A stretch of DNA of 64,000 nucleotides, from contig NZ_JAEPPI010000001.1 in the NCBI RefSeq assembly GCF_017641085.1, positions 1,240,001 to 1,304,000 of the forward strand. The letters are read 5' to 3'. Below the pieces are notes generated by a model. The model was given only the letters and a program-made list of their open reading frames with translations, was not told the DNA's origin and did not search any database. The stretch comes from Gracilimonas sp. GTDB taxonomy: Bacteria; Bacteroidota; Rhodothermia; Balneolales; Balneolaceae. The translations under genes were made by a program, and so were the position numbers. Below, in pieces: positions 32,267 through 32,751 of the stretch; the stretch's first letter is position 1; each line of letters begins with the position of its first letter.

Positions 32267-32351
32267 GCCAAAGTGGCGGAATTGGTAGACGCGCGCGACT
32301 CAAAATCGCGTTCCTCCGGGAGTGAGGGTTCGAGTCCCTCCTTTGGTACCA
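32267..32351 (+). tRNA. tRNA-Leu (anticodon CAA)
   Basis: A complete 85-base class II tRNA. The acceptor strands GCCAAAG and CTTTGGT pair (with a G-U at the first position), followed by A and an encoded CCA. The anticodon stem CGCGA/TCGCG encloses the loop CTCAAAA with CAA at 32301-32303. The long variable arm and the T arm (GAGGG, TTCGAGT, CCCTC at 32324-32340) are intact. A short open frame on the opposite strand here is not a gene. The 3' part of this tRNA is repeated 361 bases downstream. Confidence 0.96.
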
Positions 32352-32382
32352 TCAAAGCCTTGCAGATTTCTGTAAGGCTTTT
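32327..32382 (+). repeat. Direct repeat, copy 1 (tRNA-Leu 3' part plus terminator)
   Basis: Fifty-six bases that recur exactly at 32688-32743. The copy begins inside the 5' strand of the T stem (GGTTCGAGT...) and runs through the acceptor end, CCA and the tRNA terminator hairpin into the T-run. This copy is part of the functional tRNA gene. Confidence 0.97.
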
Positions 32383-32385
32383 TTT
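32354..32385 (+). terminator. Intrinsic terminator of tRNA-Leu
   Basis: AAAGCCTTGCAG pairs with CTGTAAGGCTTT around ATTT (12 base pairs, one G-U) and is followed by T residues. The next gene's ATG is only 8 bases beyond the T-run. Confidence 0.93.
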
Positions 32386-32393
32386 ATTGCCAG

Positions 32394-32639
32394 ATGTTTT
32401 ACGTTTACGCCATATCAAGTGTTGATCGGAATTATATCTATGTCGGCTTAACAGATAATCTAAACCGGAGAGTTAGCCAACATCAAAAGGGGTACGAGAA
32501 AACTACCAAGCCCTATGCACCATTTCGACTTATTCACTCCGAAGTTTTTGATACCAGAGAAGAAGCGCGAAAAAGGGAAAAGTATTTAAAATCCGGTTCC
32601 GGGAAAGAATTTCTGCGGTCAGTAAGAGATAACCTTTAG
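32394..32639 (+). CDS. Small GIY-YIG nuclease
   Basis: An 81-residue stand-alone GIY-YIG domain (UvrC N-terminal/YhbQ-like). The motif reads FYVYAI (VYA at 4-6) and YIYVGL (YVG at 16-18), followed by the conserved Arg in NRRVSQH (25-26), PFRLIHSEVF, and the metal-binding Glu in TREEARKREKYLKSGSG (~57). The length is the bare catalytic fold, without a DNA-recognition domain. There are only 8 bases between the tRNA terminator and the ATG, with no Shine-Dalgarno sequence and no room for a promoter, so expression would need readthrough from tRNA-Leu or a promoter inside the tRNA gene. Its own 3' end is followed by the second tRNA fragment and terminator. Confidence 0.88.
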   Translation: MFYVYAISSVDRNYIYVGLTDNLNRRVSQHQKGYEKTTKPYAPFRLIHSEVFDTREEARKREKYLKSGSGKEFLRSVRDNL

Positions 32640-32648
32640 TTATAGCAT

Positions 32649-32712
32649 GTTCCTTCGGGAGTTCGGGCCTGCCTGCCGGCTGAGGCAGGTTCGAGTCCCT
32701 CCTTTGGTACCA
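32649..32712 (+). pseudogene. tRNA-Leu 3' remnant
   Basis: The stretch matches the tRNA-Leu variable arm (GTTCCTTCGGGAGT against GTTCCTCCGGGAGT) and then, after a 25-base interruption, its T loop, acceptor 3' strand and CCA. The D and anticodon arms and the 5' acceptor strand are absent and the T stem is broken, so it cannot form a tRNA. Confidence 0.85.
32668..32689 (+). repeat. Short palindrome at the module junction
   Basis: CCTGCCT and AGGCAGG form a 7-base stem around GCCGGCTG, itself partly self-complementary. It interrupts the tRNA remnant in the T stem; its right arm supplies the first two G of the 56-base repeat. GC content is well above the surroundings. I saw it only once in the window. 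Confidence 0.75.
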
Positions 32713-32743
32713 TCAAAGCCTTGCAGATTTCTGTAAGGCTTTT
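32688..32743 (+). repeat. Direct repeat, copy 2 (tRNA 3' part plus terminator)
   Basis: Exact copy of 32327-32382, offset by 361 bases. It lies 48 bases after the GIY-YIG stop and ends in the T-run of the duplicated terminator. Confidence 0.97.
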
Positions 32744-32751
32744 CTTTTTTT
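32715..32751 (+). terminator. Duplicated terminator after the GIY-YIG gene
   Basis: The same 12-base-pair stem as the tRNA-Leu terminator, followed by TTTTCTTTTTTT. It now ends any transcript that crosses the nuclease gene. From here to 32996 no gene is seen; the last part is AT-rich and ends in a strong AAGGAAGGAG ribosome site for the next gene. Confidence 0.9.

Follow-up and report, generated by a model that had tools for sequence, protein, structure and literature searches.

A stand-alone GIY-YIG nuclease gene at tRNA-Leu in Gracilimonas: a candidate minimal mobile element of tRNA genes

Introduction

Integrative elements that target tRNA genes, including tyrosine integrase islands and tycheposons, enter the tRNA gene, restore its 3′ end and leave a direct repeat. 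A free-standing homing endonuclease of the GIY-YIG type, SegB of phage T6, is reported to cleave within tRNA genes at the motif RAWTSGAAC; segB lies close to tRNAs in many phages, and SegB drives tandem amplification of the tRNA–segB unit (PMC13096335). The reverse complement of this motif, GTTCSAWTY, resembles the tRNA T loop, a reading of our own that was not found stated in the accessible text of that report (PMC13096335).

Here, a locus is described in a 64-kb stretch of Gracilimonas DNA (the window, meaning the whole stretch analysed). It has the restored tRNA and the 3′-end direct repeat of a tRNA-targeting integrative element, but no encoded integrase. It is proposed, as the probable reading, that the locus carries an integrase-free, homing-like minimal mobile element of ~361 bp that targets tRNA genes.

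Architecture of the tRNA-Leu(CAA) locus

ARAGORN finds one tRNA in the 64-kb window, tRNA-Leu(CAA) at 32267–32351 on the forward strand. Its 3′ end recurs downstream as a direct repeat of 62 nt with 2 mismatches (32327–32388 and 32688–32749; spacing 361). A first-pass annotation of the same DNA had reported an exact repeat of 56 nt, and the first 56 of the 62 nt are indeed identical. The single 81-residue GIY-YIG gene that it placed between the repeats corresponds to the ORF at 32394–32639, which matches PF01541, and the weaker similarity that it noted between the right remnant and the variable arm is visible in the sequence. No integrase is encoded between the repeats, where the GIY-YIG gene is the only gene-sized ORF, in agreement with the integrase-free module described earlier. 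Absent from that annotation was a palindrome, CCTGCCTGCCGGCTGAGGCAGG, which breaks the right-hand tRNA remnant just 5′ of the T loop. The features of the locus, with the basis for each, are as follows.

32267–32351, + strand: intact tRNA-Leu(CAA) (ARAGORN; empty-site comparison with the sister genome G001)
32327–32388, + strand: left direct-repeat copy B′, with T loop, acceptor 3′ strand and terminator (repeat comparison; same left terminator at locus L010 of genome G004)
32354–32387, + strand: intrinsic-terminator-like hairpin and T run between tRNA and ORF (read from the sequence)
32394–32639, + strand: stand-alone GIY-YIG nuclease ORF, 81 aa (PF01541, AlphaFold2, Foldseek, conserved catalytic residues)
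32648–32667, + strand: tRNA-derived remnant A″ (anticodon/variable-arm part), element-borne (common to the G004 element, unlike either host tRNA)
32668–32689, + strand: 22-nt palindrome CCTGCCTGCCGGCTGAGGCAGG at the right junction (same palindrome type in other Leu-type elements)
32688–32749, + strand: right direct-repeat copy B, the original tRNA 3′ end and terminator (downstream flank continues as in the G001 empty site)

Occupied and empty sites in related genomes

In the sister genome G001, the GIY-YIG gene is missing from the corresponding locus, which has a single tRNA-Leu and a single terminator and is exactly 361 bp shorter than in the window genome (G000). Both genomes have galE upstream and the same gene downstream, and the flanks are 96% and 95% identical. 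By this comparison, the unit of tRNA-Leu, GIY-YIG ORF and tRNA-end copy is a 361-bp insertion. A GIY-YIG-free tRNA-Leu is also found in G005 and G006 with both flanking genes kept, in G003 with synteny kept on the downstream side, and in G002 and G008 in the same neighbourhood in opposite orientation. The empty orthologous loci that the first-pass annotation had predicted are thus present in related genomes, and G000 alone among the genus genomes examined carries a GIY-YIG gene at this locus. As with free-standing homing endonucleases, some genomes carry the stand-alone nuclease gene at the target locus and others lack it. At the Leu site of G007, the tRNA-Leu 3′ end stands alone beside the conserved downstream genes (L019, around 1500), with no intact tRNA within the stretch fetched.

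Beyond the right repeat copy, the sequence continues as it does after the tRNA at the empty G001 site, which is not the case for the left copy. The two terminator copies of the window match each other but differ slightly from the G001 terminator, which suggests sequence exchange between them. No ancestral tandem tRNA-Leu pair was found: in G001, G005 and G006, the syntenic loci contain no tRNA besides tRNA-Leu(CAA).

A relative of the nuclease, 80% identical in protein sequence, lies behind a tRNA-Leu(CAA) at a different chromosomal place in G004. The left terminator of the G004 element is nearly that of the window element, whereas the right terminator differs, and the A″ segment GTTCCTTCGGGAGTTCGGG + CCTGCCTGCCGGC is common to both elements but fits neither host tRNA. 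At an initiator-type tRNA-Met locus, the sequence to the right of an element from another genus (G079) matches the downstream flank of the empty G001 site for 55 nt; the left terminator of that element shows no such match. Since the left terminator and the A″-palindrome are common to both Leu elements and the host parts differ, these pieces travel with the gene. From the G004 and Met-site comparisons, the element consists of B′, ORF, A″ and palindrome, with an insertion point inside the tRNA. The same two comparisons suggest that the 5′ part of the window tRNA-Leu(CAA) is host DNA and that its 3′ part was supplied by the element, and they support the earlier notion of an element-borne tRNA end.

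Locus L010 of G004 (1043–1526) contains a further exact copy of the tRNA-Leu end, of 55 nt, ~344 nt downstream of the intact tRNA. This extra copy precedes the GIY-YIG gene and looks like the trace of a different integrative element at the same tRNA.

A minimal, conserved GIY-YIG nuclease

The 81-aa protein matches the Pfam GIY-YIG family PF01541 (E 6e-19; 68.5 bits against a cut-off of 22.6). Its AlphaFold2 model has a pLDDT of 96, and the Foldseek matches of the model include UPF0213, Slx1 and the catalytic domain of I-TevI. As in the GIY-YIG superfamily, a domain above cut-off with the expected fold is combined with conserved catalytic Tyr, Arg and Glu residues: Y5, Y16, H30 and E62 are invariant in 52 of 52 proteins, and G18 and R26 are each present in 51. 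The R26 exception is the tRNA-Met copy of G000 (L002, 1501–1755), which is probably inactive because its catalytic Arg is changed to Gly. With dN/dS values of 0.07–0.1 for close pairs, the nuclease is conserved in sequence and under strong purifying selection.

The catalytic fold takes up almost all of the 81 residues, and the protein has no separate DNA-binding region of the kind found in SegB-like free-standing homing endonucleases. SegB is larger and includes a DNA-binding part; as the present protein lacks the separate DNA-binding region of SegB-type enzymes, membership in that group is not claimed.

Occurrence behind other tRNA genes

Ten genomes of the genus together contain about 60 small GIY-YIG genes and two long kinds, of ~620 aa (presumably UvrC, by size) and ~285 aa. 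A direct repeat (E<1e-10) straddles 45 of the 59 testable small genes in these genomes. Such a repeat surrounds 0 of 291 random blocks of the window and neither of 2 long GIY-YIG genes. Repeat flanking of the small genes exceeds chance.

On a weakly resolved tree of 113 proteins (82 columns), the tRNA-associated and repeat-associated genes separate. Within the tRNA clade, an intact same-strand tRNA ends at most 250 nt upstream of 53 of the 77 genes (median 63), and opposite-strand upstream tRNAs number 0 among the 77; the 24 genes that have no nearby upstream tRNA include some in tandem arrays or near contig ends. The corresponding count in the sister clade is 0 of 42 genes with a tRNA within 250 nt upstream. 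Members of this clade sit instead between direct copies of GTCAT..ATGAC-type intergenic palindromic repeats (L003, L005–L008 and most non-tRNA loci), which also occur as solo copies, with 27 matches in G000 for one family.

The host tRNAs upstream of such genes include those for Leu, Met, Gly, Pro, Val, Ser, Ala, Lys, Asp and Asn; at some Arg and Pro loci, the intact tRNA lies on the right instead. Copies at other tRNAs, a further prediction of the first-pass annotation, are therefore found just downstream of many tRNA genes. The isotype survey combined named relatives, class-wide matches and four Pedobacter/Roseivirga genomes, and the profile scan of genome contigs used the Gly type, an alignment of all types being too diverse. 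Named relatives come from Gracilimonas, Balneola, Marinilabilia, Chitinophaga, Roseivirga, Pedobacter, Mariniphaga, Chlorobi and Ignavibacteriales. A Met-type gene is present in 5 of the 10 genus genomes. No relative was found among phage or viral contigs, and the only plasmid match was a weak one in Azospirillum.

The tRNA isotype is strongly clustered on the tree, requiring 19 changes against a mean of 49.6 after shuffling of the isotype labels, with 0 of 200 shuffles as low. By this measure, nuclease lineage tracks tRNA identity, although the clustering would also fit vertical inheritance combined with repeat-mediated loss. Leu-type nucleases are found behind both Leu(CAA) and Leu(GAG), and two kinds of tRNA-Met with different tRNA sequences carry different nuclease clades.

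Tandem copies occur in G002, G026 and G027. At L078 (G002:C37:203700-207600), three tandem GIY-YIG genes spaced ~398 bp apart lie behind one tRNA-Met, and tandem pairs resembling this array are seen in L124 and L136.

Hairpins at the right junction

Compact hairpins with a perfect stem of 6 bp or more and a loop no longer than 10 are present in 23 of 30 alignable downstream remnants versus 8 of the 30 intact tRNAs. The stems change with compensation in Gly (TCCCGA/TCGGGA and TCCCGT/ACGGGA), Met (TCCGCC/GGCGGA and TCCGTC/GACGGA) and Val remnants (TCCCGAT/ATCGGGA and TTCCGAT/ATCGGAA). Exactly 22 nt are inserted directly after the T-loop TTC in four cases: Ser(TGA) twice, Ser(GCT) and a Chlorobi Gly(TCC). 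The type of palindrome tends to follow the type of nuclease, with CCTGCC in Leu, TCCGCC in Met and TCCCGA in Gly elements.

Two stricter readings of the palindrome were rejected. The CCTGCC..GGCAGG palindrome is not specific to the Leu nuclease: 28 exact copies lie in 5 of 10 genomes, including genomes that have no Leu-type gene, and they are often inside other repeats. Nor does the palindrome always destroy the T loop; as 17 of 30 remnants retain an unbroken T-loop motif, destruction of the site is not a general rule.

Dispersed copies of the 22-nt CCTGCCTGCCGGC..AGGCAGG palindrome were observed in G000 (G000:C1:868765, 871042, 1137556 and 257476) and in G001, G002, G004 and G009 (L171–L190), often lodged within another palindromic repeat, in its loop or arm; the loop variant is mostly uniform within one genome. 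A different, TCAACTACGCTAAAGCTTCGTTGA-like palindrome lies directly 3′ of the tRNA in Ser(GCT)-type elements and one Met type (L110, L111, L114, L116 and L107, L124).

Proposed mechanism and alternative explanations

The proposed element would read, in order, tRNA 3′ end and terminator (B′), GIY-YIG ORF, partial tRNA (A″) and palindrome. On insertion inside a tRNA gene, an intact tRNA would form from the 5′ part of the host gene and B′, with the original 3′ end (B) left on the right of the element. The nuclease may cut or nick an unoccupied tRNA gene in or near the T arm, and cellular recombination would then copy the element in, as for free-standing homing endonucleases. The direct repeats could afterwards permit both loss and tandem amplification. 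The cutting of tRNA genes and the copying-in are suggested by knowledge of the GIY-YIG family and by the precedent of SegB, while comparison between genomes shows the insertion, its size, the empty sites, the parts that travel together, the conservation of the nuclease and its tie to tRNA identity. A homing-like process that starts in the tRNA gene explains the architecture, the tie to isotype and the tandem arrays. Several points run counter to homing: a target made up of the tRNA alone would expose the intact left tRNA to cutting as well, the protein has no DNA-binding domain beyond its catalytic fold, more than half of the remnants keep the T-loop motif, isotype clustering would also fit vertical inheritance with loss, 24 of the 77 tRNA-clade genes lack a nearby upstream tRNA, and no phage carrier was found.

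Alternatively, a tyrosine integrase specific for tRNA 3′ ends could act in trans and mobilise the units as cargo-poor mini-islands in which the nuclease is a passenger. Such an integrase would leave the same product, a restored tRNA 3′ end and a direct repeat, and both the second tRNA-Leu end copy of G004 (L010) and the G007 Leu site with a tRNA end only are as expected for ordinary islands in the same gene. We nevertheless consider this unlikely, given that the same kind of gene lies at more than 50 tRNA loci, that its lineage follows tRNA isotype and that the remnant hairpins are unlike plain att repeats.

The insertions might also be ancient and vertically inherited, with a nuclease that has some host function and a patchiness that reflects loss between direct repeats. 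Precise loss is permitted by such repeats, and isotype clustering, strong purifying selection and the Met-type gene in half of the genus genomes all fit. Against this, which is likewise improbable, stand the window Leu locus, occupied in only one of the genus genomes examined, the different chromosomal place of the G004 relative and the left terminators that travel with the gene. The first-pass annotation had named a uniform arrangement, with no empty sites and no copies at other tRNAs, as evidence against mobility; both empty sites and such copies exist. Decay of a tandem tRNA pair whose members enclosed an unrelated gene, also raised there, can be dismissed as extremely improbable: tandem arrays of tRNA genes are known and the right copy is indeed a remnant, but such decay explains neither the net insertion of exactly 361 bp relative to the empty site, nor the same architecture at many isotypes, nor travelling parts such as the A″-palindrome, which is common to two genomes and fits neither host tRNA.

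Relationship to known systems

Because related pieces sit behind tRNAs for ten amino acids across several phyla, the homing-like element of the window looks like one member of an overlooked class of miniature mobile element. No description of the tRNA–GIY-YIG arrangement was found in the open-access literature, and within that scope this real and recurrent kind of element is undescribed. A broader generalization is plausible but falls somewhat short of probable: integrase-free elements may be widespread in Balneolota, Bacteroidota and Chlorobi-related bacteria. Their nucleases of 80–90 residues would be specialised, lineage by lineage, for a single tRNA family, and would insert themselves with a tRNA 3′ end of their own and a hairpin at the junction. 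The sister clade would behave likewise with dispersed intergenic palindromes, and small GIY-YIG enzymes would be a general driver of repeat-targeted mobility.

If true, these would be among the smallest autonomous-looking mobile elements known, overlooked so far, and many stand-alone genes annotated as 'GIY-YIG nuclease family', with their adjoining broken tRNA copies, would represent one kind of element. They would form a bacterial chromosomal counterpart of phage SegB and provide very small nucleases that are apparently grouped according to the tRNA they target; the spread of palindromic intergenic repeats would become a directly testable question.

Insertion at a tRNA is shared with tyrosine integrase islands and tycheposons, but the present unit has neither an integrase nor other cargo, and its ~361 bp encode just an 81-aa nuclease. 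The closest solved relatives by sequence and fold are the stand-alone GIY-YIG proteins of the UPF0213 group (PDB 1zg2 and 1ywl), which to our knowledge have not been described as tRNA-linked or repeat-flanked mobile units. The sister clade recalls the REP-associated tyrosine transposases (RAYT–REP), in that a nuclease gene is flanked by palindromic repeats that also occur alone; it differs in having a GIY-YIG rather than an HUH enzyme and direct flanking copies. The closest analogue is SegB of phages T4/T6, likewise a GIY-YIG nuclease whose stand-alone gene neighbours tRNA genes. It is, however, phage-borne, and the accessible part of its description reports no isotype preference and describes no element-borne tRNA end or hairpin remnant (PMC13096335). 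By apparent mode of action, the present element seems best filed with free-standing homing endonuclease genes.
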